NCBI RefSeq assembly: GCF_016595235.1
Contig: NZ_JAENHL010000006.1
Location: forward strand, 124,001 to 188,000
Direction: 5' to 3'
DNA from: Taklimakanibacter albus
GTDB lineage: Bacteria; Pseudomonadota; Alphaproteobacteria; Rhizobiales; Aestuariivirgaceae
DNA: 64,000 nt
The notes beneath the pieces were generated by a model. It was not told where the DNA came from. It saw only the letters and a list, made by a program, of their open reading frames with translations, and did no database searches. Numbering within the stretch: the stretch's first letter is position 1; each line of letters begins with the position of its first letter. Position numbers and translations under genes: made by a program. Of the stretch, positions 32,023-53,178 are shown in pieces.

Positions 32023-33570
32023 ATGACAGACCGTATTCTCATCATCGATTTCGGCTCGCAGGTCACCCAACTCATCGCCAGGCGGGTGCGCGAGGCCGGT
32101 GTCTACTCGGAAATCGTTCCCTTTCAGTCGGCTGAAAAAGCGCTCGACTGGCCGGGCCTCAAGGGCGTCATCCTCTCGGGCAGCCCCGCCAGCGTCACCG
32201 AGGGCGAGAGCCCCCGGGCGCCCGAACGTGTCTTCAAAATGGGCCTGCCGGTGCTCGGCATCTGCTATGGCGAGCAGGCGATGTGCGCGCAATTGGGCGG
32301 CAAGGTCGAAACCTCCGATCACCGCGAATTCGGCCGCGCTTTCCTGCAGGTGAAAAGCGACAACCCGTTGTTCGACGGCGTGTGGTCGGAAGGCGAGAGC
32401 CACCAGGTATGGATGAGCCATGGCGACCGCGTCACCGCCATCCCGCCGGGCTTCCGCGTCGTCGGCACCTCGGAGGGGGCACCCTATGCGGCGATCGCCG
32501 ATGAGAAGCGGCAGTTCTACGCGGTGCAGTTCCACCCCGAGGTGGTGCACACGCCGGACGGCGCCAGGCTCTATCGCAATTTCGTCATCGACATCTGCGG
32601 CTGCCGCGGCAACTGGACGATGGCGTCCTTCAAGGACGACGCGATCCAGCGCATCAAGAAGAAGGTCGGCTTCGACCGCGTCATCTGCGGCCTGTCGGGC
32701 GGCGTCGATTCCGCCGTCACCGCCGTCCTCATCCATGAGGCGATCGGCGAGCAGCTGACCTGCATCTTCGTCGATCACGGCCTGATGCGCGCCGGCGAGG
32801 CGGATGAGGTGGTGCGCCTGTTCCGGGAATCCTACAACATCCCGCTCGTCCATGTGGACGCGTCTAAAATGTTCTTAGGCGCACTCGAGGGCGTGAGCGA
32901 CCCGGAAGTGAAGCGCAAGACCATCGGCAAGCTGTTCATCGACGTCTTCGAAGCGGAAGCCAAGAAGATCGGCGGCGCCGCCTTCCTGGCGCAGGGCACG
33001 CTTTATCCGGATGTGATCGAAAGCGTCTCCTTCACCGGCGGCCCGTCGGTGACGATCAAGTCGCATCACAATGTCGGCGGCCTGCCCGAGCGCATGAACA
33101 TGAAGCTCGTCGAGCCGTTGCGCGAATTGTTCAAGGACGAGGTTCGCGCCTTGGGCCGTGAGCTGGGCCTCCCGGCGCATTTCGTCGGCCGCCATCCGTT
33201 CCCGGGCCCGGGCCTCGCCATCCGCATTCCCGGCGCCATCTCCAGGGACAAGCTCGACATCCTGCGCAAGGCCGACGTCGTCTATCTCGACGAGATCCGC
33301 AAGGCCGGCCTCTATGACGCCATCTGGCAGGCCTTCGCGGTTCTGCTCCCCGTCCAGACGGTGGGCGTCATGGGCGACGGCCGCACCTATGACTTCGTCT
33401 GCGCGCTCAGGGCCGTCACCTCGACCGACGGCATGACCGCCGATTATTATCATTTCGACCACGACTTCCTCGCCCGCACCGCGACCCGCATCATCAACGA
33501 GGTCCGCGGCATCAACCGGGTGGTCTACGACATCACGTCGAAGCCGCCTGGGACGATCGAGTGGGAGTGA
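32023..33570 (+). CDS. guaA: GMP synthase (glutamine-hydrolysing)
   Basis: 515 residues. A class I glutamine amidotransferase domain ([20 protein letters not shown]; nucleophile Cys in [10 protein letters not shown] near residue 83; VQFHPEV) is followed by the ATP pyrophosphatase domain with P-loop [11 protein letters not shown] near residue 224. The C-terminal dimerisation/XMP-binding region contains [14 protein letters not shown]. It converts XMP to GMP. The residue before Gly in the Cys motif is as usual, although many homologues have GICYGMQ rather than GEQ. The 3' end borders an accessory island; guaA 3' ends are known integration sites. Confidence 0.97.
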
Positions 33571-33877
33571 TCTAAGGTCGTTTGAGACATCTCGCTCCGT
33601 GCCAGGAGTCGCACGATCCCCTTGGCTGACAAGGACTATTTTCTCAACCCGTATCGCTGCATGTCCCCCCAACCCGGCCACTTTGCTCGCCCGCGGTCCC
33701 GCCAGCACTCGACCATCTCCGTGCGGTTCCCTCGGCCATGATAGCGAACGGGCGGCGCAAAGCTCCCACATAGCGCAGCGATGCCCTCTTGCAGGATTCT
33801 GCCACGGCCAACCTTACCATTGCCACAAGGACCTACTTTGTCCTAAACGGAGTAACAGAAATGCGACGGGACGGGCT
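33571..33877. other. Junction region between guaA and the defence island
   Basis: No gene is supported. A short inverted repeat, AGGAC-CTACTTT-GTCCT (33828-33844), lies about 34 bp before the Phd-like gene and could be its autoregulatory site. No integrase and no clear duplicated guaA end was found. Confidence 0.35.
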
Positions 33878-34075
33878 ATGAAAACCATGTCGGGGCGGGA
33901 GATAAAGAACGCTTTCGGCCTGATGATTGACACCGCGCGAGCCGAACCTGTTCGGATCGAGAAGCATGGATCCGGCGTCCTGATGATCGTGTCCGTGGAG
34001 GAGTATGAACGTCTTTCCGCGCGGCCGGACAGTGAGCGGCCGAAGGCCATTTCAGCCAGCCAAACGGAAAGCTGA
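33878..34075 (+). CDS. Phd/YefM-type antitoxin-like regulator heading the defence operon
   Basis: 65 residues. The N-terminal DNA-binding Phd fold reads MSGREIKNAFGLMIDTARAE followed by PVRIEKHGSGVLMIVSVEEYERL, a standard Phd/YefM pattern. No Doc, YoeB, PIN or other partner toxin follows. Instead the methyltransferase gene starts 2 bp after its stop. It is therefore probably an autoregulator or control protein of the restriction-like operon; this is inference. ATG 33878 is used; the ATG at 33861 is out of frame. Confidence 0.8.
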   Translation: MKTMSGREIKNAFGLMIDTARAEPVRIEKHGSGVLMIVSVEEYERLSARPDSERPKAISASQTES

Positions 34076-34077
34076 GT

Positions 34078-35634
34078 ATGGCCGTACCAAGTGAACCATA
34101 TCCGGTGGTGGATGTGTTTGCCGGGCCTGGCGGTCTCGGTGAAGGCTTCGCCGCGCTTCGGGGTAAAGGCTACTCCGCCAGGTTCGACAGCGTCGTCTCA
34201 ATCGAGCGAGACGAGTCGGCCCACCAGACCTTGCTTCTGCGCCATTTCCTGCGGCGCTTTCCCTACCGGCAGTTTCCCGACGACTACTATCGCTACCTTC
34301 GCGCCGACATTGACCGCGACGAGCTTTATCGGAACCACCGTGAGGAGTTCCTGGAGGCGAAGAAGAGCGCCCTGAAAATATCCCTCGGCCCGGACTCCCA
34401 CGCCGAGGTGAAGTTGATCATCAGCCGGAAGCTGAAGGGTCAGCAGAAATGGGCGCTCGTCGGTGGACCGCCGTGTCAAGCCTACTCGATTGTTGGCCGC
34501 TCACGAATGATGGGCGACCCGGACTTCGAGGAGGATGAACGCCACACGCTCTATCTCGAATATCTCAAGATCATCATCGACCACCAGCCGCCATTGTTCG
34601 TTATGGAGAATGTGAAGGGCCTACTCTCGGCGAGGATCAACGGCAAGCCGGCGATCACCCGCATCGTTCGCGACCTATCGCACCCTAAAACCGCCGTGCG
34701 TGATGGGTCCAACGGGCTCGCTTACAAGCTCTATTCGCTCTCCGAGGAGGAGCTTGCGGACGAAGAGGTGGACCCACGCCTGTTCCTTGTGAAGGCCGAG
34801 GAATACGGGGTGCCCCAGGCCCGGCACCGCATGTTCATCGTCGGCATCCGGGAGGACATCAAGGTCCGCCCGGGCCTGCTGAAACCCCAAAAGGCGCCGA
34901 CCGTGCGCCAGACCATCGGTGGCCTGCCTCCGATAAGGAGCAGCTTGTCGCAGATGAAGGATACTCTGGAGAATTGGCAACAGGAGATCGCGCGGATTGC
35001 AGAACTCCCCATCCGCCGGCAGCTCAACGGAGCGTCCTACGCGGGGGCCGTCGCGAACGGCATCTCTCTCCCGTCGATCCTGAACCTCGACAGCCCCACG
35101 GAGAGTTCGTCCAGCCGCTACTTGAAGGGCTCCATCGGGCGGCACGATACCCTTCGGGAACTCTACGATCCACGCCTGCCGGTTCTGACAAGCCATGAGT
35201 CCCGCAAGCACATGCCGTCCGACTTGAGGCGGTACATGTTCGCCTCGGTGTTCGCGCGGGAGGCGGGTCGAACTCCGAAACTCCGGGATTTCCCCGAAGC
35301 CCTTCTGCCCGATCATCAGAATGTAGAACTCGCCCGCACCGGGCAGATGTTCAATGACCGCTTCCGGGTTCAGCTTCCTGACCAGGTCGCGACCACGATC
35401 ACGTCGCATATCTGCAAGGATGGCCACTACTTCATCCACTACGACCCGTCGCAGTGCCGGAGCCTCACGGTTCGGGAGGTCGCGCGGCTCCAGACCTTCC
35501 CTGATAACTACAAGTTCGAAGGAAACAGGACCGCGCAGTATCATCAAGTGGGCAACGCGGTACCGCCCTATCTCGCAACGCAGATCGCGGCGGTCATTGC
35601 TGAGGTGCTCGACGCGATGAAGGTCGACCGATGA
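34078..35634 (+). CDS. DNA (cytosine-5) methyltransferase
   Basis: 518 residues. Motif I is VVDVFAGPGGLGEGFAAL. Motif IV with catalytic Cys is GGPPCQAYSIVGRSRMMGD (about 130-148), motif VI is FVMENVKGLLS, motif VIII is QARHRMFIVGIRED, and motif X is YHQVGNAVPPYLATQIAAVI. The target-recognition region between VIII and IX is about 190 residues long. It would protect a host sequence by m5C methylation; the site cannot be read. It sits between the Phd-like gene (2 bp gap) and a Vsr gene that overlaps its stop, as in m5C restriction-modification loci. Confidence 0.95.
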   Translation: MAVPSEPYPVVDVFAGPGGLGEGFAALRGKGYSARFDSVVSIERDESAHQTLLLRHFLRRFPYRQFPDDYYRYLRADIDRDELYRNHREEFLEAKKSALKISLGPDSHAEVKLIISRKLKGQQKWALVGGPPCQAYSIVGRSRMMGDPDFEEDERHTLYLEYLKIIIDHQPPLFVMENVKGLLSARINGKPAITRIVRDLSHPKTAVRDGSNGLAYKLYSLSEEELADEEVDPRLFLVKAEEYGVPQARHRMFIVGIREDIKVRPGLLKPQKAPTVRQTIGGLPPIRSSLSQMKDTLENWQQEIARIAELPIRRQLNGASYAGAVANGISLPSILNLDSPTESSSSRYLKGSIGRHDTLRELYDPRLPVLTSHESRKHMPSDLRRYMFASVFAREAGRTPKLRDFPEALLPDHQNVELARTGQMFNDRFRVQLPDQVATTITSHICKDGHYFIHYDPSQCRSLTVREVARLQTFPDNYKFEGNRTAQYHQVGNAVPPYLATQIAAVIAEVLDAMKVDR

Positions 35635-36053
35635 TGGCCGACACGGTCAGCACCACGCATCGAAGCTGGAACATGTCGCGTATCAGAGGACGCGACACAG
35701 AACCGGAAGTGAAGCTCCGATCGCTGCTGCATCGCGCCGGCTATCGTTTCCGCCTTCACGACCGGAAGCTACCTGGACGACCCGATATTGTGCTTCCGAA
35801 GTACTGGGCGACGATATTCGTGCATGGATGCTTCTGGCACCGCCACGAAGGATGCAGCAACGCGACGACCCCATCGACGCGGCCGGAATTCTGGGTGGCA
35901 AAGTTCGAGGGGAATGTTGCTCGTGATCGCTCCAACGCCGAGCGCCTCTCAGACCTCGGCTGGCGGGTGATTGTCGTCTGGGAGTGCGATCTGATGAAGG
36001 ACCCTGGAGGGATTCTTTCGACGATCAACAGTACCCTTCGCGGAGACCACTGA
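35631..36053 (+). CDS. vsr: Very short patch repair endonuclease (Vsr)
   Basis: 140 residues, the normal Vsr length. The sequence shows the Vsr pattern RSWNMSRIRGRDTEPEVKLR, FRLHDRKLPGRPDIVLPKY with the catalytic Asp, the zinc/active-site segment VHGCFWHRHEGC, and the closing LGWRVIVVWECDL. Vsr nicks T:G mismatches arising from deamination of 5-methylcytosine. The start overlaps the methyltransferase stop (ATGATGG; 35631 or 35634), and its stop overlaps the next start. Confidence 0.94.
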   Translation: MMADTVSTTHRSWNMSRIRGRDTEPEVKLRSLLHRAGYRFRLHDRKLPGRPDIVLPKYWATIFVHGCFWHRHEGCSNATTPSTRPEFWVAKFEGNVARDRSNAERLSDLGWRVIVVWECDLMKDPGGILSTINSTLRGDH

Positions 36054-37531
36054 TGGCTGAGGATCACCGTCTCCCGCCAAGCGCAGCGTGTCTCTCCGCA
36101 TCCATGCGGGACCTGGGCTATTCGCTGGAGACGGCAGTCGCCGACCTCATCGACAACAGCATTTCGGCCGAGGCCACAAAGGTCGATATCGTATGCGAGA
36201 TCGCGGCGGTGTCCCCCTATCTCGCGATCATCGACAACGGCCGGGGTATGTCGCGTTCTGAGCTAATCGAGGCGATGAAGCACGGAAGCGCCAGCCCGAA
36301 GACGAAGCGCGGAGCGCATGATCTTGGCCGGTTCGGACTTGGCCTGAAGACTGCCTCATTCTCTCAATGCCGGAGCCTCACCGTCATCAGCCTGAAGAAG
36401 GGCGAACTCAGCAGTGCGGAATGGAACCTCGACCGCATCGACCGCGAGGACGACTGGATTCTATCGATCCTCAACGATCAGGATATCGCCGACCTGCCGC
36501 ACGTTGATCAGCTAGCGGATCACGGCACGGTGGTCATTTGGCGCGAACTCGACCGGCTGTCTGAGGATGAGAGCGGAAGCCGCCGCGATGAAATCGTCAA
36601 CGAGAAGCTCGACATTGTGGAAAGGCACCTCGCGCTGGTTTTCCACCGCTTCTTATCCGGTGAGGTGAAGGGCCGGAAACGCATCGCGATCACTCTCAAC
36701 GGGCATGTCGTTCAACCGTTCGATCCGTTCTGTCGTAAGAACATGGCGACCCGTCACCTCCCCGAGGATTACGTAACTGTCGATGGCGAGACAGTAACGT
36801 TGCAGCCGTACATTCTACCCCACCACAGCAATCTCACGGCGTCCGAGTACGACTTCTATCAGAGCCGCAGCGATTTCATCTCCAACCAGGGGGCCTACAT
36901 CTACCGAAACGGGCGTCTCATGGCTTGGGGCGACTGGTTCCGCCTGATTCCTAAGGGCGAAGCGACCAAGCTGGCCCGCGTTCAGATCGACTTCCCGAAC
37001 AGCCTTGATGAGTCGTGGACCATCGACATTAAGAAGTCTCGAGCCCGCCCGCCGCTGGCGGTGCGCGAGCGTCTGAAGCAGATCATCGGCCTGGTGACTG
37101 GGGCAAGCACGACGGTTCATCGTGGCCGTGGACAGAAGCTGTTCGATGAAGTCGCCGCTCCTGTGTGGGAACGCTACGCGGATCATGCCCGCATCCGTTA
37201 CGCAGTGAACTCAGGTCATCCACTTATAGAGCAACTGAGGTCACGGCTCGGCGCCGAGGACGCAAAGCTACTCGGCCTCGTGATCGACGCCGTCGGGTCC
37301 TCCATCCCGGTCGAGATGATCTATTCGGACTACTCACTCCACCCGCGCGAAGTATCCCAGACCCAGGACGAAGAGGTTGTAGTGCTGGAGCGTCTGCGCG
37401 CACTCAGGGATGCGTTTTCTGATACCACTACCATCGGGGCCGGGGGATTCCGCGAAATAGTGCGTTCGACGCACCTGTTCGATTCCCACATGAACCTCGC
37501 CGAGAAATTCATCGCCGAGGAGTTTGTATGA
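36053..37531 (+). CDS. MORC/MutL-like GHKL ATPase of the defence operon
   Basis: 492 residues. Bergerat-fold motifs are complete: N-box ETAVADLIDNSIS (about 27-39), G1 IIDNGRGMSRSELIEAMKHG (about 58-77), and G2 DLGRFGLGLKTASFSQC (about 88-104). A second domain with a conserved IDIKKSRARPP (S5-like fold with a Lys that contacts ATP in this group) follows. GHKL ATPases of this type clamp DNA on ATP binding. Prokaryotic MORC-like members occur in operons with Z1 and PD-(D/E)XK proteins. ATG 36053 overlaps the Vsr TGA, and the stop overlaps the Z1 start by 4 bp. Confidence 0.88.
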   Translation: MAEDHRLPPSAACLSASMRDLGYSLETAVADLIDNSISAEATKVDIVCEIAAVSPYLAIIDNGRGMSRSELIEAMKHGSASPKTKRGAHDLGRFGLGLKTASFSQCRSLTVISLKKGELSSAEWNLDRIDREDDWILSILNDQDIADLPHVDQLADHGTVVIWRELDRLSEDESGSRRDEIVNEKLDIVERHLALVFHRFLSGEVKGRKRIAITLNGHVVQPFDPFCRKNMATRHLPEDYVTVDGETVTLQPYILPHHSNLTASEYDFYQSRSDFISNQGAYIYRNGRLMAWGDWFRLIPKGEATKLARVQIDFPNSLDESWTIDIKKSRARPPLAVRERLKQIIGLVTGASTTVHRGRGQKLFDEVAAPVWERYADHARIRYAVNSGHPLIEQLRSRLGAEDAKLLGLVIDAVGSSIPVEMIYSDYSLHPREVSQTQDEEVVVLERLRALRDAFSDTTTIGAGGFREIVRSTHLFDSHMNLAEKFIAEEFV

Positions 37532-40200
37532 GTGTGAGCCAGGCTGAGCTGGAAAAGGACATCCTGGTCTCGCTGATCCGCAGCTTGGCGAGTCTCACCG
37601 AACCGCCGACGTGCGAAATGGTGGAGAAGAAGGCCCGGCAGATGGCGGCGGTCTTCGACTATGACGGTGACCTCTCCAACATCATCGAAGAGGCGTTGAT
37701 CGCGGTCGACACCCGCATGGGCGCCGGCGTCTCGCTCGTGGATGACGAGGCGAGACACGACGAGGACTGGGTCCGCAAGCGCGAGATCCCGACGATGTAT
37801 TCCGACGCCTACGAGGGACACCTCAAGGACGATGGTTGGCACTCGACGATGGTCAGGTCGCTCGGCGACGTATGCACGCGCATCCTCGGACATCTCCAGG
37901 ACCCGAAAAGTGAGGGGGCGTGGAACAGGCGCGGGTTGGTAATCGGTCACGTGCAATCCGGCAAGACGGCGAACTTCACCGGCGTGATCGCGAAGGCGGC
38001 TGATGCCGGTTATAAGTTCATCATCGTCAGCGCCGGCATTCACAACAATCTGCGCCGGCAGACGCAGGAGCGTCTCGAAGAGGCGTTCATCGGGCGGTCC
38101 AGCGATCCCAACAATCGTGTGAGCATCGGCGTCGGCCTGATCGACGGCTACAAGCATCCTGCGACGCTCACCACGATCCACAGCGACTTCAGCAAAAAGA
38201 CCGCCGAGGCGAGCTGGAAGATCAACGACTTCAGCGTGCCGATCATCCTCGTCATCAAGAAAAACGTTCGCACCCTGGACTCGCTCTTCAAATGGCTGAG
38301 GGAGCTGAACGCGAAGGACGGTCGCATCGGCGACGTGCCGATGCTCTTCATCGACGACGAGGCCGACAACGCATCGATAAACACGAACAAGGAGGATATC
38401 AACCCTACGCGGACCAATTCCATGATCCGCCGCATTCTCCGCCTGTTCTCAAAGTCGTGCTACGTCGGTTACACGGCGACCCCGTTCGCGAACATATTCA
38501 TCAACCCCGACGCCTATGACGAGGACGTTCGGGAGGAGCTGTTCCCCCGGCATTTCATTTACAGCCTCGACCCGCCGAATTCGTATTTCGGCCCGCACAA
38601 GGTATTCGTTGACGACAGCAGCAGTGAGCGCATCGTTCGGGAGATCGACGACTGCGAGGACTACATCCCATCCTCGCACAAGAACGGCGACACGGTTCCC
38701 GAACTGCCGCCTAGCCTCTACCGCGCGTTGGATGATTTTATTGTCGCACGCACGATCCGCAATCTGCGTGGCCAAGCCGCGAAGCACTGCTCGATGCTGA
38801 TCAATGTGTCTCGCTTCGTCTCCGTCCAGAAGCAGGTCCGCGACTTCGTCAGTGAGCGCCAGAACAAGATCATGCTCGCAGTGAAGGCGAACTACGCAAA
38901 AGCGCTGCCGGCGGTTGAGACCGACGAATACATGGGGCGGCTGAAGGATGCCTATGAGCGCGAATTCAGTGACTGCGGCTTCGCTTGGTCGGAAGTCCGG
39001 GGGGCGCTCTTCGGCGCCTTCGACCATATGCGGCTCTTGGTCGTGAACAGTAAGACCGAAGACGTGCTCGACTACGGCAAGTACGAGAAGGAAGGTGTCG
39101 GCCTGACCGCGATCACTATCGGCGGTCTCAGCCTGTCGCGCGGTCTGACCGTCGAAGGTCTTACCATCAGCTATATGTACCGCAATACCCGTATGTACGA
39201 CACGCTGCTCCAGATGGGCCGTTGGTTCGGCTACCGGCCGAACTTCGAGGACCTGTGCCGTGTCTGGCTTTCGGACGACTCGATCAACTGGTACAGCCAC
39301 ATCGCCAGCGCGACCGAGGAGCTTCGCGAACAAATCAGGCGCATGCGTCGCGCGAAGATGACGCCGGAGCAGTTCGGCCTCTATGTCCAGTTGCACCCCG
39401 ACGCTCTCCTCATCACCGCCGCGAACAAGATGCGAACGGGACAGCAGGTGACGGTCAGCCAAAGCTTCAATGCACAGTTAAAGGAGAGTTCCAGGCTCCC
39501 GCTGTCGCCTGAGACCAGCAATGAAAATGAGGTCCTGATCGCGGAATACTGGACGGACGGCTTTGGCGGAAAGCCAGCAGAACCCACCGGTAAAGGCTGG
39601 GTCTTCAAGGGTGTCGACCAGGAGGTGGCGCTGGACTTCCTCGGGGGCTTCAAAGTCCACAAGGACTTCGCGCCGATGAAGGGGGCGCTGATGGCCTACC
39701 TCGATAAGATCAAGGCGGCGCACCCCGTGGTGGACGTGTTGCTAATCTCGCTTCAGAGCGGTGGTGAGGATGAGGCGGCATTCAAACTCGGCGTCCAGCA
39801 GCGCGACGCCTCGGTGGCCGCCGAACGGATCAAGGACGGCGGGTGGTTGTTGAGCAAGCATCGTGTCGCCAGCCGTGGCGACGAGAAGCTCGGCCTCACC
39901 GATGTCCAGATCGAACGTGCGAAGGAGCGGGCACGCGAAGACCCGGAGAACGAGAGCATGGACAAGTTGGCGTCGGACCTGCATTACCGGCGCGAGCGCA
40001 ACCGCCCGCTCGTCATGGTTCATGTGCTGGAGCCGACGAACAACGATGACCTCAAGGGACGGCGCATCCCGGCCTTCGGCGTGAGCTTCCCGGAGGGCGA
40101 CTACTCGACCACTGTCGAGATCGTCGCAAACAAGGTCTGGATCGAGCACATGTATGGATCGCTGACAGATGACCCGGATGAGGAGGACGATGATGAGTGA
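37528..40200 (+). CDS. Z1-domain superfamily II helicase-like protein
   Basis: 890 residues. It has Walker A GHVQSGKTANFTG near residue 141, Walker B FIDDEADNASIN near 275, and VGYTATPFANIFINP near 313. The late helicase-type motif is SRGLTVEGLTISYMYRNTR with QMGRWFGYR near 561, the defining Z1 block. The C-terminal third (about 640-890) is unassigned and ends in an acidic tail (DDPDEEDDDE). Z1 proteins are predicted ATP-driven motors in restriction-like systems together with MORC-type ATPases. Start ATG 37528 overlaps the previous stop (ATGA). Confidence 0.88.
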   Translation: MSVSQAELEKDILVSLIRSLASLTEPPTCEMVEKKARQMAAVFDYDGDLSNIIEEALIAVDTRMGAGVSLVDDEARHDEDWVRKREIPTMYSDAYEGHLKDDGWHSTMVRSLGDVCTRILGHLQDPKSEGAWNRRGLVIGHVQSGKTANFTGVIAKAADAGYKFIIVSAGIHNNLRRQTQERLEEAFIGRSSDPNNRVSIGVGLIDGYKHPATLTTIHSDFSKKTAEASWKINDFSVPIILVIKKNVRTLDSLFKWLRELNAKDGRIGDVPMLFIDDEADNASINTNKEDINPTRTNSMIRRILRLFSKSCYVGYTATPFANIFINPDAYDEDVREELFPRHFIYSLDPPNSYFGPHKVFVDDSSSERIVREIDDCEDYIPSSHKNGDTVPELPPSLYRALDDFIVARTIRNLRGQAAKHCSMLINVSRFVSVQKQVRDFVSERQNKIMLAVKANYAKALPAVETDEYMGRLKDAYEREFSDCGFAWSEVRGALFGAFDHMRLLVVNSKTEDVLDYGKYEKEGVGLTAITIGGLSLSRGLTVEGLTISYMYRNTRMYDTLLQMGRWFGYRPNFEDLCRVWLSDDSINWYSHIASATEELREQIRRMRRAKMTPEQFGLYVQLHPDALLITAANKMRTGQQVTVSQSFNAQLKESSRLPLSPETSNENEVLIAEYWTDGFGGKPAEPTGKGWVFKGVDQEVALDFLGGFKVHKDFAPMKGALMAYLDKIKAAHPVVDVLLISLQSGGEDEAAFKLGVQQRDASVAAERIKDGGWLLSKHRVASRGDEKLGLTDVQIERAKERAREDPENESMDKLASDLHYRRERNRPLVMVHVLEPTNNDDLKGRRIPAFGVSFPEGDYSTTVEIVANKVWIEHMYGSLTDDPDEEDDDE

Positions 40201-41164
40201 TCGTCTTCCCTGGGATGACATCGGCGTTCCGACACGCGACTACACCGTGCGCAAGATTGCAGCGGCCAGCTCGATACCGCTCTTCTGGGGACGCGACACC
40301 TTGGGTCGTTGCCTCATCATTATTGAGCTTGAGGGCGATTTCGCGGAGGACTTCCGGCGCGGCGTCGTCGAATTTCACGGCATCAATGTCGATCTGCGTG
40401 ATAGTGACGCCCCACAGCAGCAGCGCCTTGTTCTTACCCTTGACCGCACGGTCGATCAGGACCTCTTCTTTGGTCTCTGTCAGACGCTCATCAACACCCT
40501 TGCACCAGCAACTACCTCCGTTCAGGCGCTCGCGATGGCGCTGGCGCATATCCGGCGGTGGCGGGCATTCCTGGCTGCGCGCAAATCGCGCCATCTGTCC
40601 GATGAGGAGGTTCGCGGCCTCTGGGCCGAACTCCAGTATATGCGCGCGCTGTATGCCGGACGGCTGACGACGGCGGAGACCGTAGATGGCTGGACCGGTG
40701 CCGATATGCGTCAGCAGGACTTCATCTTCGACAACATCGCCGTCGAGGTGAAATCGCTACATGGTCGCGACCGCAACTCCGTGCGGATTTCCTCAGAAGA
40801 TCAGCTCGCGACGGTCGTCGATGACCTGTTCCTGGTCACTCACCGGCTCACCGTTGCGGCGGACACCGCCGGTGCGGTGTCGCTGAACGCGCTGGTGGAG
40901 CTGGTCGAAGGTGAACTCGGCGACGCCGATGTGCTGGAGCAGTTCTCCCAGAAACTCGCCGATTTCGGCTACCTGCCGATCGCCGCCTACGATACGCCCG
41001 AATTTGTCGTAGCCGACCGCCAGACCTACCGCGTCGAAGGTGATTTCCCGCGCCTGGTGCGTGCGGAGCTGCCTTCGGGCATCGTGCGGGTTTCATACGA
41101 AATCGAACTCGAAGCGATGAAGGACTTTCAGGTGAGCAACGACGAGGTGTTGAAGGGGGATTAA
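40193..41164 (+). CDS. PD-(D/E)XK motif nuclease-like protein (DUF4420 family)
   Basis: 323 residues. The nuclease core is LWAELQYMRALYAG (helix with conserved Glu) then QDFIFDNIAVEVKSLHG, giving D...E-x-K of a PD-(D/E)XK active site near residues 178-190. The family commonly accompanies Z1 and AIPR proteins. It would be the DNA-cutting subunit of this system. ATG 40193 is preferred to 40190 because AGGAGG ends 6 bp before it. It overlaps the Z1 stop by 8 bp, and the next gene begins on the base after its stop. Confidence 0.85.
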   Translation: MSDRLPWDDIGVPTRDYTVRKIAAASSIPLFWGRDTLGRCLIIIELEGDFAEDFRRGVVEFHGINVDLRDSDAPQQQRLVLTLDRTVDQDLFFGLCQTLINTLAPATTSVQALAMALAHIRRWRAFLAARKSRHLSDEEVRGLWAELQYMRALYAGRLTTAETVDGWTGADMRQQDFIFDNIAVEVKSLHGRDRNSVRISSEDQLATVVDDLFLVTHRLTVAADTAGAVSLNALVELVEGELGDADVLEQFSQKLADFGYLPIAAYDTPEFVVADRQTYRVEGDFPRLVRAELPSGIVRVSYEIELEAMKDFQVSNDEVLKGD

Positions 41165-43228
41165 GTGGAACTGACGGCGGAGGATTTCTTTCATGACTTC
41201 CGGCAGGAGATACTCGCCGGGGCGGAGGCGAACAGCGCCTTTCAACTCACCGCCTTCATGGAAGGCGTCGGTAACGAACTGGTCGAAACCGGCTTCGTCG
41301 AGGGCTTCGAGTTCTGCCACTACCGCGCCCAGCGAGGCATGCGTGTCGATGGCTATTGGTTCGACGACGAGGGAGGCCTTGACCTGTTCGTGGCCGATTT
41401 CGAGTGCAGGCAGGAGCTTGCCTCGCTTACCCGCACTGACGTCGAGGCGGCCTTCAAACGTCTCACCTCCTTCTTTGAAGCCTCCCTCCGAAAGGATTTG
41501 GCGAAGGACCTGGAAGTCACGTCGCCGGAATATGGCCTCGCCCGCCAGATAGCAGACCGAAAGGGGCAGCTCCGGCGGATCAATCTGATCCTCGTTTCGG
41601 AACGCACGCTCAGCGACCGGCTTCAGAGCATGCCCGATGGTGAAGTCTGCGGCGTACCTGCCAGTTATCACATCTGGGACATCTCAAGGCTCTTCCGCCA
41701 GCGCAGCTCACGCAGCCACAAGGAGGCGCTCGATCTGGACTTCGAGGCGATGTTCGGTGCGGGAATCTCCTGTCTGCCGGCGCACCTGGGGTCCGACGCC
41801 TATCCGTCGTATCTCATCGTCATGCCGGCCGACGTTCTGGCGACGCTCTATGGAAAATTCGGCGCTCAGCTTCTTGAGCAGAATGTGCGCTGTTTTCTCC
41901 AGGCCAGGGGTAAGGTCAACCAGGGCATCCGGGCGACGATCATCAACGAGCCTTCAATGTTCTTTGCCTACAACAACGGCATCACCGCCACGGCGCAGAG
42001 CGTCGAGACGAAGAGGGGGGTAGAGGGCCTCGCCATCACCCGGATCGTTGATCTCCAGATAGTCAATGGCGGCCAGACGACGGCGTCTCTCTTCCACACG
42101 AAGCGCCGCGACGAGGCGAAGCTCAACGGTATCTTCGTGCAGATGAAGTTGTCGGTGATTGACAGCGAGGAGAGCGACACGGTCGTTCCACTTATTTCGG
42201 AGTATGCCAACACCCAGAACCGGGTGAACGCGGCGGACTTCTTCTCCAACAGCCCGTTCCACGTGCGCATGCAGGACTTCTCGCGCCGTCTCTGGGCACC
42301 CGCGCAGCAGGGAGTGCAGCGCGAGACGAAGTGGTTCTACGAGCGTGCGCGCGGGCAGTATGCCGATGCGCAGTCGAAGCTGACGCCTGCCGAGCAGCGG
42401 CGCTTCAAGGCTGAGAATCCCAAACCTCAGATGTTTACGAAGACGGACCTCGCGAAGTTCGAGAACGTCTGGGATGACCATCCGAAATGGGTGAACCTGG
42501 GCGCTCAGAAGAACTTTGCCCGCTACGCCGCACGGATTGGCGCGGAATGGAAAAAGTCGTCGGACGGCTTCAACGAGTTTTACTTCAAGCGGATCGTTGC
42601 CCGTGCGCTAATTTTCCGGGCCTGCGAGAAGCTCGTCTCCGCTCAGTCTTGGTACAACGGCGGCTACCGCGCCAACATTGTCGCCTACACGCTGGCCGTC
42701 ATCAGCGAGATTGTGCGCCGTCAGGGCAAGGCCATTGACTACGGCCGTGTCTGGAACGCTCAGGGCATCAACGGCACCTTTGAACAGGCGCTGGCCGACA
42801 TCTCCAAGGCGGTGAACGAGGAAATCATTCGGCCGCCTGCGGGCATCTCCAACATCTCCGAATGGTGCAAAAGGGATGCTTGCTGGACCGGTCTTCAGGG
42901 TAACCTCGAAAAATTCGAGCAGCTCCTGTCAGAGGAATTCAACGGCGACCTGCTGTCGGCGGAGGATCGTGCCTCGGAGGCTCAGAGCGCGAAGAAGACC
43001 CAGAAGATCGACAATGGCATCGAGGCCCAGCGGCGCGTTCTCGGCATTGCGGCGGATGAATGGGCCAAGGTTCGCAAGGTGCTTTCAACCCGCAAACTGC
43101 TCTCGACCAAGGAAGCGGGAATCCTCGACATAGCCATGCAGATGCCCGCCAAAATCCCGACCGAGAAGCAGTGCGCCGTGCTTATCGAGACGATCGAGAA
43201 GGCGCGCCTTGAAGGGGTGCTGCTATAA
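41165..43228 (+). CDS. AIPR family protein (abortive infection phage resistance type)
   Basis: 687 residues. Family motifs are FFAYNNGITATAQSVE near 267-282 and RIVDLQIVNGGQTTASLFHT near 292-311. An N-terminal region (about 1-200) has alternating strands and helices with an E-x-D/E-rich stretch. The AIPR name comes from lactococcal abortive infection proteins. GTG 41165 follows the PD-(D/E)XK stop with no gap, so translational coupling is likely. It ends the tightly packed operon. Its biochemical activity is not established from sequence. Confidence 0.88.
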   Translation: MELTAEDFFHDFRQEILAGAEANSAFQLTAFMEGVGNELVETGFVEGFEFCHYRAQRGMRVDGYWFDDEGGLDLFVADFECRQELASLTRTDVEAAFKRLTSFFEASLRKDLAKDLEVTSPEYGLARQIADRKGQLRRINLILVSERTLSDRLQSMPDGEVCGVPASYHIWDISRLFRQRSSRSHKEALDLDFEAMFGAGISCLPAHLGSDAYPSYLIVMPADVLATLYGKFGAQLLEQNVRCFLQARGKVNQGIRATIINEPSMFFAYNNGITATAQSVETKRGVEGLAITRIVDLQIVNGGQTTASLFHTKRRDEAKLNGIFVQMKLSVIDSEESDTVVPLISEYANTQNRVNAADFFSNSPFHVRMQDFSRRLWAPAQQGVQRETKWFYERARGQYADAQSKLTPAEQRRFKAENPKPQMFTKTDLAKFENVWDDHPKWVNLGAQKNFARYAARIGAEWKKSSDGFNEFYFKRIVARALIFRACEKLVSAQSWYNGGYRANIVAYTLAVISEIVRRQGKAIDYGRVWNAQGINGTFEQALADISKAVNEEIIRPPAGISNISEWCKRDACWTGLQGNLEKFEQLLSEEFNGDLLSAEDRASEAQSAKKTQKIDNGIEAQRRVLGIAADEWAKVRKVLSTRKLLSTKEAGILDIAMQMPAKIPTEKQCAVLIETIEKARLEGVLL

Positions 43229-44007
43229 GAGCGCAACATCGCACACGCAGAGCGCCCAGTTCAAACGTCCCATGGACCGACGGGGAACTGGCCGATGCCG
43301 TCGAGGCATACGTCTTCCTGCTCCGAGCACAGGCCGTAAGCCTGCCGTTCCGAAGCGAAGCGGCTGCTCTGGCTCTCCTCGACGAGGGGCTTCCGGATCG
43401 CAACGATGCATCTTTGCGATACCGGTTCCGAAATATCTCTGCGGTCGTTAGTGAACTGGGAGGGCCCATTCTCACCGGCTATTCGCCGGCCGAACAAGTC
43501 GGCGCTGGAGTGCGACCGAGGATCAGGGCGTTACTGCTGGGGAGTCCGGAGTTTCGGAAAATCCTCGCTCGTATGCAAACGCTGGGCACAGATATCCCTA
43601 TCGTTCGTCCTGGCGACCGGCAGTATGCACTCGAAGCCCTCGCACGACTCCGGCAAAGCCTTGATGACGTTGAGCGGGAAGTTCTCGGCATCGGCCACAA
43701 CAATCCGCCCGAGCCATTGTCCTCAGAAGGGCTCAGGCGCGAGGCATTCAACGAGGTCCGACAACATATTGAAGCTCTTGAGTCGGAGATGGAGAAGCCG
43801 TCCCCGGACCAAGCATCTGTCGCAGCTAATTCCGAGGGGCTCGTCCAGTTCGGCGTAAAAATGGCCGCTTGGGCAGGCCAGCGGACCACGAAGTTCGTGG
43901 ACGCAGCACTGGCAGTTCTGGCACCGGCAATTGTTTTGAAAGTAACAGGCCTGCTTCCAGTCCTTCTGGAGGCGCTTGAGGCTGTGGCTCGGGTTCTAAC
44001 GCATTGA
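43225..44007 (+). CDS. Unknown protein: head-like N-terminal domain plus hydrophobic C-terminus, start unclear
   Basis: The frame is open from 43213 to 44007. The first canonical start is TTG 43414 (197 residues). Upstream the same frame still reads like a protein, with PWTDGELADAVEAYVFLLR then AALALLDEGLPDRNDASLRY running into RNISAVVSELGGPILTGYSP. This resembles, from memory, N-terminal head domains of McrA/HNH-type restriction proteins. An ATA at 43225, overlapping the AIPR stop, has AAGGGG 7 bp upstream. The C-terminus (about 35 residues) is strongly hydrophobic, two possible helices. It could be a membrane-acting partner of the defence operon. A true ATA start, a sequencing error or a pseudogene are all possible. 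Confidence 0.55.
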   Translation: MRAQHRTRRAPSSNVPWTDGELADAVEAYVFLLRAQAVSLPFRSEAAALALLDEGLPDRNDASLRYRFRNISAVVSELGGPILTGYSPAEQVGAGVRPRIRALLLGSPEFRKILARMQTLGTDIPIVRPGDRQYALEALARLRQSLDDVEREVLGIGHNNPPEPLSSEGLRREAFNEVRQHIEALESEMEKPSPDQASVAANSEGLVQFGVKMAAWAGQRTTKFVDAALAVLAPAIVLKVTGLLPVLLEALEAVARVLTH

Positions 44008-44291
44008 GGTCGTGCGCTGGCAGAGATTCTTTGGCCTGCATTCTCGTGGCGCTCGTTTATGATACGAGCACGTCTATGGCGGGGAGGACCATCACATAGA
44101 ATCCGCGAAACCAGCGCCCTTACCCTGGTCGTATCGCAGTTGGTATGGACTTGGGGTCTGAGCGGAAAGCTCAATAGTTACAATGCGAACTCAAATCGAG
44201 TGAGAGTAGGCAGGGAGACCACGCCGGCGCATGATTTACCGTTTTTTAGCGACTAGCCTCGAAGACCAAGAAAGGCTTTGCCGATCGAGCC

Positions 44292-45194
44292 ATGGGACTG
44301 GGAGTCTTCATTCATCGCCTGGACTCGATCTATGAGGACAGTCCAGCCGAACAATATCAATTTCCCAGCCAGTACTTGAGTCGTGTGGAAGCCTGTGTCG
44401 GCGATTGGATAATCTACTACGAACCGCGCAAGGTTGGGCAGACGCGGGGCTATTTCGCGCTCGCAAGGGTCCAGCAGGTTATTCCGGACCCCGGCGTGCC
44501 TGGGATGTACCTGGCGCTGATTGAGCCCGGAAGCTATCTCGACTTTGCCAATCCGGTTCCCTTCACTGAAGCGAACGGACGGCCGATAGAACGAGGCGTT
44601 CTCAACGACGAGGGGCGGATTTCAGGACGCGCTCAATCGGCAGTGCGGCCGATCTCTCGTGAAGATTTCAGTAGAATTGTTGGGCTCGGCCTCGATGAAC
44701 AGATTCCGTTACTGCCTCGGGTCGATGATGAAATGCCGCAGTCTTCTCTTGCAGAGGAGCAGGCGCCTTTCACCTATGACGAACAGCGCGATCGCGTCAG
44801 CATCACCATATCGAGGGTCATGCGCGATCGGGTCTTTCGACGTGTCGTCCTGCGCGCCTATGACGAGCGATGCGCCATCACGGGGCTAAAGCTCATCAAC
44901 GGAAGAGGGCGGGCGGAGGTCGCTGCCGCGCACATTCGGCCGGTTGAAGCAAGCGGACCTGATATTGTCGGCAACGGGATAGCGCTTTCGGGCACGGCGC
45001 ATTGGATGTTTGATCGCGGCTTGATCAGCCTGGCCGACAATCTGGAAATACTGATCTCGCGGCAAGCGAACGATCCGCAAGGAATCCGATCGATAGTCAA
45101 CAAATCGGGTTACGCGCTTTCACCCAAACGCATGTCGGACCGTCCGCATCCGCATTTTCTAAGATGGCATCGTGAGAGCTGCTTCAAGCAATGA
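44292..45194 (+). CDS. HNH endonuclease with N-terminal EVE/PUA-like domain
   Basis: 300 residues. The N-terminal domain (about 1-115) begins MGLGVFIHRLDSIYEDSPAE and has VGDWIIYYEPRKVGQTRGYF, resembling EVE/PUA-type modified-base readers. The C-terminal HNH nuclease (about 185-260) has CAITGLKL, AAHIRPVEASG and NGIALSGTAHWMFDRGLISL, which supply the His/Asn/His site of the HNH_2 type. Such fusions are predicted modification-dependent (type IV) restriction enzymes. It stands alone, 284 bp after the orphan gene, on the same strand as the defence operon. Ribosome-binding site is weak. Confidence 0.85.
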   Translation: MGLGVFIHRLDSIYEDSPAEQYQFPSQYLSRVEACVGDWIIYYEPRKVGQTRGYFALARVQQVIPDPGVPGMYLALIEPGSYLDFANPVPFTEANGRPIERGVLNDEGRISGRAQSAVRPISREDFSRIVGLGLDEQIPLLPRVDDEMPQSSLAEEQAPFTYDEQRDRVSITISRVMRDRVFRRVVLRAYDERCAITGLKLINGRGRAEVAAAHIRPVEASGPDIVGNGIALSGTAHWMFDRGLISLADNLEILISRQANDPQGIRSIVNKSGYALSPKRMSDRPHPHFLRWHRESCFKQ

Positions 45195-45435
45195 GCGGAT
45201 GGCGTCGCTGATAGGCAAATCTCGCCGCTCTCCATTTTAGATTTTGTCCGCTTCGTTTGCTCTCACCCGCAGGTTGATAAACCGGAATCAGAAATTGTAC
45301 GACGCAGCGCCGACACGCTGAACGGAGCACCGTCCATTAAGTCTGTTTGAGAACCGATACGGATTCTCGCTTGTCAAAAAACGCAAATCGATATCATTTG
45401 TCGCTTCTGATGCGGCACATACGGGGGCATGGAAT
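45195..45435. other. Intergenic region ending the first accessory block
   Basis: No gene is seen. Composition drops in GC compared with the flanks. No tRNA, integrase or convincing direct repeat marking an island edge was found. Confidence 0.3.
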
Positions 45436-48294
45436 ATGCGTACACGCTCGGGCGGGAGCGCTTCCGACAGAAAATCCAACAAGAAGTTCGAGCTTGCCGG
45501 GGGCGTCTGCATAGCTGCCCTGGCGCTGGGCTTCACGGCTTCCTCGGCGCTGGCGGCGAATTTCGAGGCCTCCAATCAGACCGAGCTCTACCAGGCGATC
45601 GCCGATGCCCAGGCCAGCCCGGATGCCGCATCGACGATCACGCTGACCGGCAGCTTTCAGATCACCAGCTCGCTTCCGCCGATTGCCGGAAAAGCTATCA
45701 CGATCGATACGGGCGTCCACACTCTGGCTTATAACGCGGCGGCGCCTTTTGATATCGCCGGCGATGCAAGCCTGACTCTGTCTGGCCAGATCCTGGGTAC
45801 CGGCGGCCTGAATGCAGGCCAGTTGAGCAAGATTGGCGCGGGCCAGCTCATCATCGACGGTGCAACCGGTTCCGGCATCACCAGAATCGGCCTTAACGCC
45901 GGTCACACCCTGATCACCGGCGGCAGCGAAGTCACATTCGGGACCTCTGCCGGCGGCTCACTGGCCCAATTGAGCATTGCGACGGCGGCCAATTCGCAGG
46001 CGAGCCTGACGATATCCGGCCAAGGCACAAGGCTGGTCGCCACGGGCACCGACTCGACCGACCTCAGCGCCGGCGGCGGAAGCCAGTCGACGCTGACCAT
46101 CGAGAAAGGCGGCGTATACACGACATCGACCGGCATAAGAGTTCACACACCGGGTTCACAAGGCATCGCCAATATCAACGTCCTGGACGAAGGCTCCACG
46201 CTGGAGGCCGGCGGCTTTGTGTCGGCCAACGGCACCACCAACATCAAGGTGCGGGCTGGCGGCGTGGTCGACATCAGCGGCGCCACCTCGTTCGGCGGCG
46301 CCGGAAACGTTGCCTATGCCGGCGCTCTGGTCACGGCCGAGGTGTCGGGCGATGGGTCCCGCTGGGACTCGGGCACGACAATGGCCATGTATCGAGGCTC
46401 GCTTTCAGTCCTGGATGGCGGCGTGGTTTCGGCCGGAACGACGATGAACATCGCCACCGTTTCGGGCAACGTCGTCCCCAATTTCAGTGTCCTGGTTTCG
46501 GGCGCCGGGTCGGAGCTCAGCGCGACGACGATGAATCTCGGCACCACGGGCACCGGCATCCTCACCATCGCCGATCGCGGCCGCGTCGTGGTGAATGGCG
46601 GCAACTCGGCCCTCACCGTCGGCGGTGTCGATCCCGACAGCGACGCCGCGCTGAATATCGGCGGGGTTGCGGGCCAGGCCGCGGCGGCCGCCGGAACGCT
46701 CGCAGCATCCGCCGTCACGCTCGCGGCCAGCGCCGAGATCAATTTCAACCACACCGAAACCGCTTATGTCTTCGACATTCCGATCAACGGCAGCGGCGCC
46801 ATCAACCAACTGGCCGGACGCACCATCTTCAATGCCGACCAGTTGGGCTTCCTCGGCCTCGCCAGCATCTATGGCGGCGTGCTCGAGGTCAACGGCGCGC
46901 TCGGCGGCACCATGGATGTGCGCGGCGGCACGCTTGCCGGCACCGGCTCGGTCGGCAACACCGCGAACTATGCCGGCGGCGCCATCGCGCCCGGCAGCAA
47001 CGGCATCGGCACGCTCACCATCGACGGCAACTACACCAGCAATGGCGGCGCTCTCAGGATCGAGTCTGTGCTCGGTAACGATGCTTCGCCGACCGACCTT
47101 CTGGTCGTCACCGGTGACTCCATCCTCGGCAGCGGCGCGACGCAGGTCTTCGTCACCAATCTCGGCGGCGCCGGCGCCGCAACGACGGGCGACGGCATCA
47201 AGATCGTCGATGTGGCAGGTACATCCGCCGCCGACGCCTTCGTGCTGGGCGCCCCGGCGATCGGCGGCGCGCATCTCTACGGTCTCTTCCAGAATGGCAT
47301 CGCCGATCCGGCCGACGGTGACTGGTATCTGCGTTTGACCGATATCCTGGCCCCGACGGTGCCCACTTACGAAAACTATCCCGTCGTGCTGCTCCAGTTG
47401 ACCGAGCTGCCGACCTTGCGCCAGCGCGTCGGCGATCGATATCTCCCGGGCGCCGGCCAGGCCGATGATGGAAATTATCCCGGTCCCCGCAACTTCTGGA
47501 CCCGCATCGAAGGCGCCTATGGTCATGTCGAGGGGGATTCGGCCAGCGGCACGTCCTATGACAGCCACCGTTATCTCGTGCAGGTCGGCATCGACGGCCG
47601 GCTCGCCGGGGACGCGTCGGGGATGCTCGTCGGCGGCCTCAACGCGCAATATGGCAAGGTCGACGCCGACATCGAGTCGCGCCTCGGCGATGGCGACAAT
47701 TCGACCGACAGCTATGGCCTCGGCGCCACGCTGACCTGGTATGGCAGCGACGGCATTTATGTCGACGGGCAGGCCTCGATCGCCTGGCTGTCGAGCGATC
47801 TTTCTGCCGACGCTGTCGGCGATCTCGTCGACGGTAATGACGGCTTCGGCTATGCCTTCAGTCTCGAGGCCGGCCGCAAGATGCCTGTCGGCGGCAACTG
47901 GTCGCTCACCCCGCAGGCGCAGCTTGCCTATACGTCGGTCGATTTCGACGACTTCACCGACCAGTTCGGCGCCGATGTGACGCTGGAGAGCGGCGACAGC
48001 CTGAAAGGCCGCATCGGCGTGGCGCTCGACTATGACGGGGGAACCGGCGACAGCCCCACCCACGTCTACGGCATCGCCAATATCACCTACGAGTTCCTCG
48101 ACGGGACCGCGGTTGACGTAGCGGGCACCGAAGTCGGCTTCGAGCCCGACTCTTTCGGTGCCGAGCTCGGCCTCGGTGGCGCCTATCGCTGGGGCGGCGG
48201 CCGGCACTCTTTATATGGCGAGGCGCTCGGCACCACGAGCTTCGAGGGCAGCTACGGCATCAAGGGCACGGTTGGCCTGAGCACGGCATTTTAG
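45436..48294 (+). CDS. Autotransporter (type Va) with C-terminal beta-barrel
   Basis: 952 residues. A long signal peptide (about 40 residues, basic region then GGVCIAALALGFTASSALA) precedes a passenger of repetitive beta-helix sequence, roughly 41-650, rich in Gly, Ala, Thr and Asn. The C-terminal barrel (about 682-952) starts near FWTRIEGAYGHVEGDS and ends in Phe (GTVGLSTAF), the outer-membrane insertion signal. No protease or adhesin signature is evident in the passenger, so its role (adhesion, surface layer) is open. A terminator follows. Confidence 0.9.
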   Translation: MRTRSGGSASDRKSNKKFELAGGVCIAALALGFTASSALAANFEASNQTELYQAIADAQASPDAASTITLTGSFQITSSLPPIAGKAITIDTGVHTLAYNAAAPFDIAGDASLTLSGQILGTGGLNAGQLSKIGAGQLIIDGATGSGITRIGLNAGHTLITGGSEVTFGTSAGGSLAQLSIATAANSQASLTISGQGTRLVATGTDSTDLSAGGGSQSTLTIEKGGVYTTSTGIRVHTPGSQGIANINVLDEGSTLEAGGFVSANGTTNIKVRAGGVVDISGATSFGGAGNVAYAGALVTAEVSGDGSRWDSGTTMAMYRGSLSVLDGGVVSAGTTMNIATVSGNVVPNFSVLVSGAGSELSATTMNLGTTGTGILTIADRGRVVVNGGNSALTVGGVDPDSDAALNIGGVAGQAAAAAGTLAASAVTLAASAEINFNHTETAYVFDIPINGSGAINQLAGRTIFNADQLGFLGLASIYGGVLEVNGALGGTMDVRGGTLAGTGSVGNTANYAGGAIAPGSNGIGTLTIDGNYTSNGGALRIESVLGNDASPTDLLVVTGDSILGSGATQVFVTNLGGAGAATTGDGIKIVDVAGTSAADAFVLGAPAIGGAHLYGLFQNGIADPADGDWYLRLTDILAPTVPTYENYPVVLLQLTELPTLRQRVGDRYLPGAGQADDGNYPGPRNFWTRIEGAYGHVEGDSASGTSYDSHRYLVQVGIDGRLAGDASGMLVGGLNAQYGKVDADIESRLGDGDNSTDSYGLGATLTWYGSDGIYVDGQASIAWLSSDLSADAVGDLVDGNDGFGYAFSLEAGRKMPVGGNWSLTPQAQLAYTSVDFDDFTDQFGADVTLESGDSLKGRIGVALDYDGGTGDSPTHVYGIANITYEFLDGTAVDVAGTEVGFEPDSFGAELGLGGAYRWGGGRHSLYGEALGTTSFEGSYGIKGTVGLSTAF

Positions 48295-48350
48295 CTCTAA
48301 AAGCCTTCAAATTTGGCGGGATATGCTCTAGAACCCGCCACAACCAATCC

Positions 48351-48379
48351 CGGCTCGCCACTCATCGTGGCGGGCTTTT
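48351..48379 (+). terminator. Intrinsic terminator after the autotransporter gene
   Basis: GCTCGCCAC-TCATC-GTGGCGGGC forms a 9-bp stem (one G:T pair) followed by T5. A weaker GGCGGG...CCCGCC stem lies just upstream. It ends 24 bp before the next start. Confidence 0.75.
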
Positions 48380-48402
48380 TCGTTACTCCAGCCAGCAAGA
48401 CC

Positions 48403-50031: not shown

Positions 50032-50630
50032 GCGTGATGGCCAGGCTTCGGTGCCATAGCCACGAGGTGGTGGGTGCCACGTTGCCAGCCGCGACGGGAT
50101 ACTTAAGGAGGCCCCAAGTTGGATCGTTGATGCATCGAACTGCCACCTAAGTGGAAGCAGGAAATACGCTGTCTCCGCCTTTCGGTGGAACCTAGGGTAG
50201 TGGCGCCGATACTCGGCGGAGTTTTGGCCTCGCGGTCCATGCGAGCAAAGCGGACGTTGTCCGGCCAGAGGGACATCCGCAGGTCCGGCCTCAATTCCGC
50301 AATCTGACAGGCCTTTGTAGGCCGCTCATCGCCCAGACCGCCAGCGTCTTGATTAAAATCATGATTTATCAAGTGAAATGAACCTTCAGAAGCTCGTTAC
50401 CTGAGATAGCCTCGCATCCGGTATGACGATGCTTCTTGTCGCGATTGCGAAACGCGTATACCGTCGTACGCCAGGTGAAGTTTTTCCAAAGGTTTGGACT
50501 TGTCGAATTGATCGATGCGGTGTTTCTGAAGCGCTTTCCGGAAAGGTGATCCAGTTCGCCGCACTTTCAATGTCTGTTGCAAGTCTACCGATCTGATAAC
50601 AGCTTGATTGTCGCCAAAAGGAGTAGGGCG
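50032..50630. other. Region without confident gene at the edge of the AT-rich island
   Basis: About 600 bp. A minus-strand frame of 89 codons (50103-50372) shows no recognised domain and may be a degraded remnant. From about 50350 the GC content falls sharply and stays low to about 55.3 kb. No integrase, tRNA or clear terminal repeat was found. Confidence 0.4.
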
Positions 50631-52113: not shown

Positions 52114-52118
52114 ACCGC

Positions 52119-53176: not shown

Positions 53177-53178
53177 GA

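Follow-up and report, generated by a model that had tools for sequence, protein, structure and literature searches.

The seven genes at positions 33878-43228 of a 64,000-nucleotide stretch of the Taklimakanibacter albus genome (contig NZ_JAENHL010000006.1, positions 124,001 to 188,000; the whole stretch is called the window, and positions below are counted in it) probably form an ATP-dependent restriction-modification system based on 5-methylcytosine (m5C) and of the MORC-Z1-DUF4420-AIPR kind, which would place it in type II of Miller et al. (2022, PMC9523054; this and the other papers are cited here from parts of their text) and among the relatives of MZA. This reading is suggested by the protein families and their motifs, the gene order kept in relatives, the near-constant presence of a DNA methyltransferase (MTase), the precedent of the CglI and NgoAVII systems and the location of the operon in a variable island.

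All seven genes lie on the + strand, with junctions of 0-2 bp or overlaps. They encode, in this order, a Phd/YefM-like small protein (33878-34075), an m5C MTase of 518 amino acids (aa) (34078-35634), a Vsr very-short-patch-repair endonuclease (35631-36053), a MORC-family GHKL ATPase homologous to MzaB (36053-37531), a superfamily 2 (SF2)-type ATPase motor of 890 aa with a Z1 domain, homologous to MzaC (37528-40200), a predicted DUF4420 nuclease of the PD-(D/E)XK kind, homologous to MzaD (40169-41164), and an AIPR protein homologous to MzaE (41165-43228). The gene content, order and tight spacing given in the original prediction, which was made from the DNA letters, thus stand in full. The Phd and MTase genes are separated by 2 bp, and overlaps of 4 bp were observed both between MTase and Vsr and between MORC and Z1. 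Vsr and MORC overlap by 1 bp, provided that translation of MORC begins with the ATG at 36053; a longer MORC open reading frame (ORF) starts at the GTG at 35984, and residues 21-32 of this longer form are where the matches to relatives start. The DUF4420 gene has candidate starts at 40169, 40190 and 40193, giving an overlap of 8-32 bp with Z1, and the AIPR gene, which has a GTG start codon, follows DUF4420 with a gap of 0. No internal stop was found in any of the seven genes, and guaA is located at 32023-33570.

Gene Order and Distribution in Relatives

At least 567 relatives were confirmed when the GTDB species collection was scanned with MORC, and the best 80 were kept (the named loci); as these were picked by likeness to the window MORC, their rates describe near kin. 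The order MORC, Z1, DUF4420, AIPR, which the original prediction had proposed to compare across genomes, is kept in 67 of the 68 named relatives whose contig extends 6 kb or more beyond MORC, the sole exception being L058, with a shortened Z1 and neither DUF4420 nor AIPR. The operon is therefore not a chance grouping. Among the 56 fetched stretches reaching at least 2 kb before and at least 8.5 kb after MORC, 54 contain an m5C MTase and 45 a Vsr, and the two loci without the MTase in the fetched stretch are L058 and L061. The nearest MTase (n = 54) lies upstream on the same strand in 38 loci, downstream on the opposite strand in eight, downstream on the same strand in five and upstream on the opposite strand in three.

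In the class of the host, MORC was detected at 1e-20 in seven of 289 genomes, its own included. An MTase accompanies all six other matches, Z1 and DUF4420 five of them and AIPR as well four, with one AIPR-bearing locus (L011) having this gene split over two open stretches. Across the phylum, 20 of 398 genomes, the host again included, have an MzaC-like protein at 1e-20, none of them above the cut-off. A further 14 loci were obtained, comprising 13 of those 19 other MzaC-like genomes and L121, which was found with the window Z1, and an m5C MTase lies near 13 of them; the MORC of L115, L116 and L118 is also found, unchanged, in the named set.

Protein Families and Conserved Motifs

Pfam and NCBIfam named all seven proteins, and PADLOC six, all but the Phd-like one. 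The MTase matched Pfam DNA_methylase (E 4.3e-47) and NCBIfam dcm (138.1 bits, cut-off 100.65), its PPC and ENV stretches are conserved, and no other PF00145 gene was found in the assembly (7.17 Mb, 98.3% complete). Its PDB matches (HaeIII, HhaI, DNMT1 and others) align best in the catalytic stretches 126-264 or 437-515, and therefore no target of the MTase is claimed. Vsr was recognised by Pfam (5.6e-28) and by NCBIfam vsr (142.9 bits, cut-off 97.85), its best PDB match is the DNA mismatch endonuclease 1cw0, i.e. Vsr (1.2e-34), and residues D51, H69, H71, C74 and C118 are conserved across 59 rows. The Phd-like protein gave weaker matches, with PhdYeFM_antitox at 3.9e-07 (30.2 bits, cut-off 29.8) and NCBIfam phd_fam at 1.6e-06. 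A homologue stands immediately upstream of the MTase in nine of the 80 named loci (contig ends truncate several), and no toxin partner was seen within the operon; the protein is a probable operon regulator.

The MORC protein matched HATPase_c_3 (7.1e-35) and PADLOC MzaB (9.3e-85), with an NCBIfam score of 310.5 bits under the cut-off of 850, and a 5-row profile placed human MORC2 as the top PDB match (1e-08) with MutL behind it (2e-06). The GHKL motifs are present, with D54, D57, N58, D84, G86, G88, D113-G120 and K122 conserved in at least 95% of 81 sequences. The S5-domain motif GhXhhpXXRhl of Iyer et al. (2008, PMC2292703) is found as GAYIYRNGRLM at residues 303-313, the final M standing where the motif wants an aliphatic residue, and relatives carry GTYVYRGGRLM and GFYVYRGKRLI. 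The motor matched Pfam Z1 (1.7e-73) and PADLOC MzaC (5.8e-125), with 489.6 bits in NCBIfam (cut-off 1500). Its assignment to SF2 is based on a ResIII match at residues 133-320 (0.0012, below the Pfam cut-off) together with the conserved stretches GxVQSGKT, DDEAD, TATPF and QMGRWFGYR.

DUF4420 was recognised by Pfam (2.2e-62), PADLOC MzaD (1.1e-22) and NCBIfam (123.8 bits, cut-off 420), and E154, D184, E193 and K195 are invariant in 56 aligned sequences, window included. The AIPR protein matched AIPR (9.3e-101), AIPR_N (3.1e-44) and PADLOC MzaE (3e-82), with 351.2 bits in NCBIfam (cut-off 1050). Searches of the PDB by sequence gave no match at E ≤1 for AIPR or Z1 and two chance-level matches for DUF4420 (E 0.42 and 0.44). 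Predicted models were obtained for AIPR (pLDDT 86.3, pTM 0.69) and DUF4420 (pLDDT 91.7, pTM 0.72), and Foldseek returned no match at E ≤0.001 for either, the best values being 0.23 and 0.014, respectively. Among the weak top matches of AIPR, 2vld (a repair endonuclease from an archaeon), HamA and EndoMS came ahead of unrelated proteins. The N-terminal part of AIPR is arranged as alpha-beta-beta-beta-alpha...beta and contains a D62 that hardly varies, but AIPR is not claimed as a nuclease. The weak matches of DUF4420 were mostly protein kinases and were disregarded.

Motif integrity was assessed in alignments of the named genomes with the window, holding 65 rows for AIPR, 67 for DUF4420, 81 for MORC, 70 for Z1, 70 for the MTase and 59 for Vsr. 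The window departs from residues shared by at least 95% of rows only at Z1 150 and MTase 468, both mildly. The positions of the conserved motifs are computed, and the functions attached to them are what we take them to be. Catalytic residues are kept and are conserved among the relatives, which agrees with the intact motifs of the original prediction, and, judged from its sequence, the operon is intact and probably functional.

Covariation of the Methyltransferase and Vsr with the Core

Covariation was measured by rank-correlating identities while controlling for all remaining genes, with permutation p values from many tests and no correction. Three sets were used, namely 24 near rows, 47 rows and a separate 12 rows, from which rows sharing an identical MORC with the first set had been removed. 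The partial correlation between MTase and Vsr was 0.64 in the near rows, 0.23 in the 47 rows and 0.55 (p 0.006) in the separate 12, and those of Vsr with the subunits of the core (MORC, Z1, DUF4420 and AIPR) ranged from -0.10 to 0.08 across the three sets. Three groups of loci among the nearest relatives were also compared: A (L015, L017, L018, L022), B (L019, L021, L023, L024, L025, L029, L036) and C (L028, L030). Between B and C the mean identity is 0.80 for Z1 and 0.73 for DUF4420, against 0.47 for the MTase and 0.57 for Vsr, whereas between C and A the MTase (0.77) and Vsr (0.80) are closer than Z1 (0.62) and DUF4420 (0.57); MORC and AIPR have identities of 0.68-0.72 in both comparisons alike. 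As far as these identities can tell, the MTase and Vsr evolve as one unit largely uncoupled from the core, which is a new lead, and their covariation speaks for a repair role of Vsr alongside the MTase.

We also sought a target-reading subunit by covariation with the MTase or its target recognition domain, and no consistent signal between row sets was obtained. In the 47 rows the MTase partials were 0.16 with DUF4420 (p 0.003), 0.14 with AIPR and 0.12 with Z1 (p 0.003-0.027 over these three), and -0.21 with MORC. For the pair of MTase and DUF4420 the values were 0.37-0.48 (p 0.004-0.006) in the separate 12 rows, where the other core proteins gave -0.22 to -0.03, and 0.00 in the 24 near rows. 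The target recognition domain alone gave 0.15 with Z1 (p 0.017, 57 rows) and 0.14-0.15 with the halves of DUF4420 (p 0.003-0.010) in 32 far rows, with nothing in 25 near ones, and another run yielded partials from -0.19 (AIPR) to 0.21 (MORC) in near pairs and from -0.05 to 0.18 in all pairs. The link between DUF4420 and the MTase is thus weak and set-dependent, a weak lead at best.

A division into three modules, suggested in the near set by MTase-Vsr (0.64), Z1-DUF4420 (0.56) and MORC-AIPR (0.75), was dropped, as only MTase-Vsr stays strong: in the separate 12-13 rows Z1-DUF4420 fell to 0.24-0.25 and MORC-AIPR to 0.26-0.34, and the strongest core pair was DUF4420-AIPR (0.46-0.52). The MTase tree differs from the MORC+AIPR tree (34 rows each), and the MTase data reject a 14-row MORC+AIPR clade (p 1e-81) that was named after the tree had been seen. 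This rejection is not specific to the MTase, as the Z1 (4.6e-06) and DUF4420 (0.0016) data reject the same clade.

The guaA Island and Neighbouring Genes

The operon is held in a variable island (33571-48388) between guaA and a gene for an ABC-transporter-type ATPase, delimited by comparison with the same-genus genome G657. There (locus L131) guaA ends at 2550 and the counterpart of window 48389-50038 starts 63 bp later, so that the 14.8 kb at 33571-48388 are an insertion relative to G657. The same-genus genome G656 has 5.8 kb of different DNA at the matching place after guaA, G655 showed no match of more than 80 bp to window 28001-64000 within 15 kb after guaA, and no Z1 match was found in four other same-genus genomes. 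The guaA gene is a common integration site. In G657 about the last 218 bp of guaA recur, 77% identical, about 1.8 kb downstream (L131:4366-4571), and window 50272-50315, downstream of the ABC-type ATPase gene, carries a 44-bp, 82% match to guaA; such degenerate copies are as expected if there had been repeated integration with the guaA end as attachment site. No integrase was recognised among the scanned island proteins.

Three further + strand genes of the island follow the operon. The first (43414-44007) is an ORF of 197 aa with no Pfam or NCBIfam match and a weak PADLOC match to PDC-S36 (3e-06, residues 3-55). The second (44292-45194) encodes an HNH_2 nuclease of 300 aa, named HNH by PADLOC, whose residues 170-299 matched the NCBIfam phosphorothioated-DNA-binding restriction endonuclease at 96.3 bits (cut-off 180) and whose N-terminal half received no assignment, and it is possibly a modification-dependent restriction enzyme. 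It was rejected as a member of the system, its homologues being found in four of the 80 named and one of the 14 further loci. The third (45436-48294) encodes an autotransporter protein of 952 aa. Beyond the island, window 50038-56308 has no match of more than 80 bp to G657 in the compared stretch, and a second variable stretch (50577-55109) has the look of a further accessory or defence cluster; it encodes a dual-OB protein, two DUF488 proteins, a DUF5131 protein and two proteins with no Pfam match.

Proposed Mechanism and Alternative Readings

In the mechanism that we propose, the MTase would mark a site in the host genome and Vsr would repair the T:G mismatches that result from deamination of its m5C. 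The Z1 motor, set going on unmarked DNA, would drive the DUF4420 nuclease to cut, by analogy with the Z1-bearing N-proteins and the R-proteins of CglI/NgoAVII. The MORC ATPase may be a clamp or loop-former gated by ATP, helping to keep the DNA in place while it is cut, DNA looping being the role proposed for MORC in PMC2292703. AIPR might, as a guess, be a subunit that binds DNA or helps the complex to assemble, and the Phd-like protein would regulate the operon.

Several observations weigh against a restriction-modification system of this kind. Among the class loci, L013 has no Z1, DUF4420 or AIPR within 20 kb, and AIPR was not found in L014. The call of DUF4420 as a nuclease draws on Pfam and the motif, since Foldseek gave no match for it at E 0.001. 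In the 24 near rows the MTase partials with each core protein are -0.03 to 0.04 (p 0.34-0.62), and this divergence of the MTase, untracked by the core, casts doubt on a core that reads the MTase site. In addition, L061 carries the whole core and no m5C MTase was found in the 21.4 kb fetched, and an MTase is not among the lettered genes of MZA as cited in PMC9523054, so that the core may not need one. These last three points also favour a core acting as an anti-phage machine that responds to a trigger different from missing m5C, such as free DNA ends or an intermediate of phage replication, and that perhaps kills the cell, with MTase-Vsr as an accessory or separately selfish module; the position and strand of the MTase, which vary across 54 loci, and the name AIPR, which derives from abortive infection, point the same way. 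However, with an m5C MTase close by in 54 of the 56 named loci with room, in six of six class-search loci and in 13 of 14 further ones, its presence is too constant for a mere passenger, and we regard such a trigger as unlikely, though it is the rival to which we give most weight.

The place of the Vsr gene inside the operon, between MTase and MORC, and the relationship of MORC to MutL, the partner of Vsr in mismatch repair (PMC2292703), could suggest that Vsr is part of the restriction nuclease and not a repair enzyme of the MTase. But Vsr covaries with the MTase in all three row sets and with no core subunit, and it is missing from 11 of the 56 loci with room for it, which makes this role highly improbable. 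We give just as little credence to a housekeeping operon for DNA repair or chromosome organisation: GHKL ATPases, motors, nucleases and Vsr do occur in repair too, but the distribution is patchy (MORC in 7/289 genomes of the class, MzaC in 20/398 of the phylum, Z1 in 0/4 other same-genus genomes), and the island is absent at the matching place in G657.

Rather doubtful, but of some consequence, is the proposal that the core does not itself read the site protected by the MTase and that exchange brings different MTase-Vsr cassettes together with the motor-nuclease pair. If this held, specificity would be borrowed from whichever MTase is present, or a generic non-self signal would be used, giving a plug-in restriction machine, unlike classical restriction-modification systems with their matched enzymes. 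As MTase-Vsr is only loosely coupled to the core, what directs core cutting becomes a concrete question with swappable parts. The MORC ATPases are, moreover, eukaryotic chromatin proteins that Iyer et al. (PMC2292703) derived from such bacterial systems. As the operon MTase is the sole PF00145 protein found in the assembly, a simple methylome read-out of its target is to be expected. The interest lies in the mechanism and the swap question and not in the locus itself.

Comparison with Known Systems

MZA (mzaABCDE) is reportedly an anti-phage system, said to have been described by Gao et al. in 2020. The window shares homologues of MzaB, MzaC, MzaD and MzaE by PADLOC, and the letter order equals its gene order. 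It differs from MZA in that these four proteins score far under the NCBIfam equivalog cut-offs (see above) and in having its own MTase and Vsr in front. MzaA is a sigma factor as cited in PMC9523054, and neither a sigma factor nor MzaA was matched among the nine proteins scanned at 33890-45191, the presence of an MzaA model in the libraries being unchecked. By these matches the operon is a relative of MZA and not MZA in the strict sense. In the MzaC-like loci L108-L112 an ORF of about 750-930 aa, with apparent ankyrin-like repeats near its start as judged from the letters by eye, was observed upstream of MORC and is perhaps of the MzaA type; an m5C MTase lies near all of these loci except L110. 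Genome surveys also count Mza (PMC10855318, PMC12629846).

The combination found here was reported by Miller et al. (PMC9523054) as a putative, widespread defence system of type II (II-A/II-B) resembling MZA at about 20% identity. The defence or restriction reading of the original prediction holds up. Shared with type II are the core of a Z1 protein (about 925 aa), a PD-(D/E)XK DUF nuclease and a cytosine MTase, together with AIPR, MORC and a putative transcriptional regulator, all of which were recognised in the window by Pfam, PADLOC or NCBIfam, and no clear difference was found in the parts of that paper drawn on. It prints the nuclease domain as DUF4220; its main text does not have the word Vsr and ties repair endonucleases to type I.

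The CglI and NgoAVII systems combine an SF2 ATPase containing Z1 with an R nuclease and an m5C MTase (GCSGC); the ATPase works in the presence of ATP and unmethylated sites, and the R-protein needs the N-protein in order to cut (PMC4267653). An m5C MTase, an SF2-Z1 motor and a separate nuclease are thus shared, with Z1 and DNA_methylase over the cut-off in the window. The nuclease of CglI/NgoAVII is, however, PLD-B3 and that of the window DUF4420, with no PLD or B3 family among the Pfam matches of the operon proteins, and in the account drawn on these are three-gene systems with no MORC, AIPR or Vsr.

The reference to Iyer, Abhiman and Aravind (2008) in the original prediction was apt, as PMC2292703 names MORC, a Z1-type superfamily II helicase and a nuclease of the restriction endonuclease fold, and its text and Figure 2 legend also name DCM, Vsr and AIPR. 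The remark that the way such systems work is little studied holds in so far as the matches listed from a single open-access library included no paper on how a bacterial MORC system works, but they are better known than it implied, given the MZA homology and PMC9523054. Corynebacterium diphtheriae BH8 has also been reported to carry an island in which a Z1 helicase and DUF4420 occur together with a Dcm-like MTase (PMC5379612). The third operon type of Iyer et al. comprises MORC, a distinct superfamily II helicase (Z1) and a novel nuclease of the restriction endonuclease fold, often with DCM, Vsr and AIPR; the window fits it with no difference found in the parts of the paper drawn on, and the locus is a further copy of an already published gene set.

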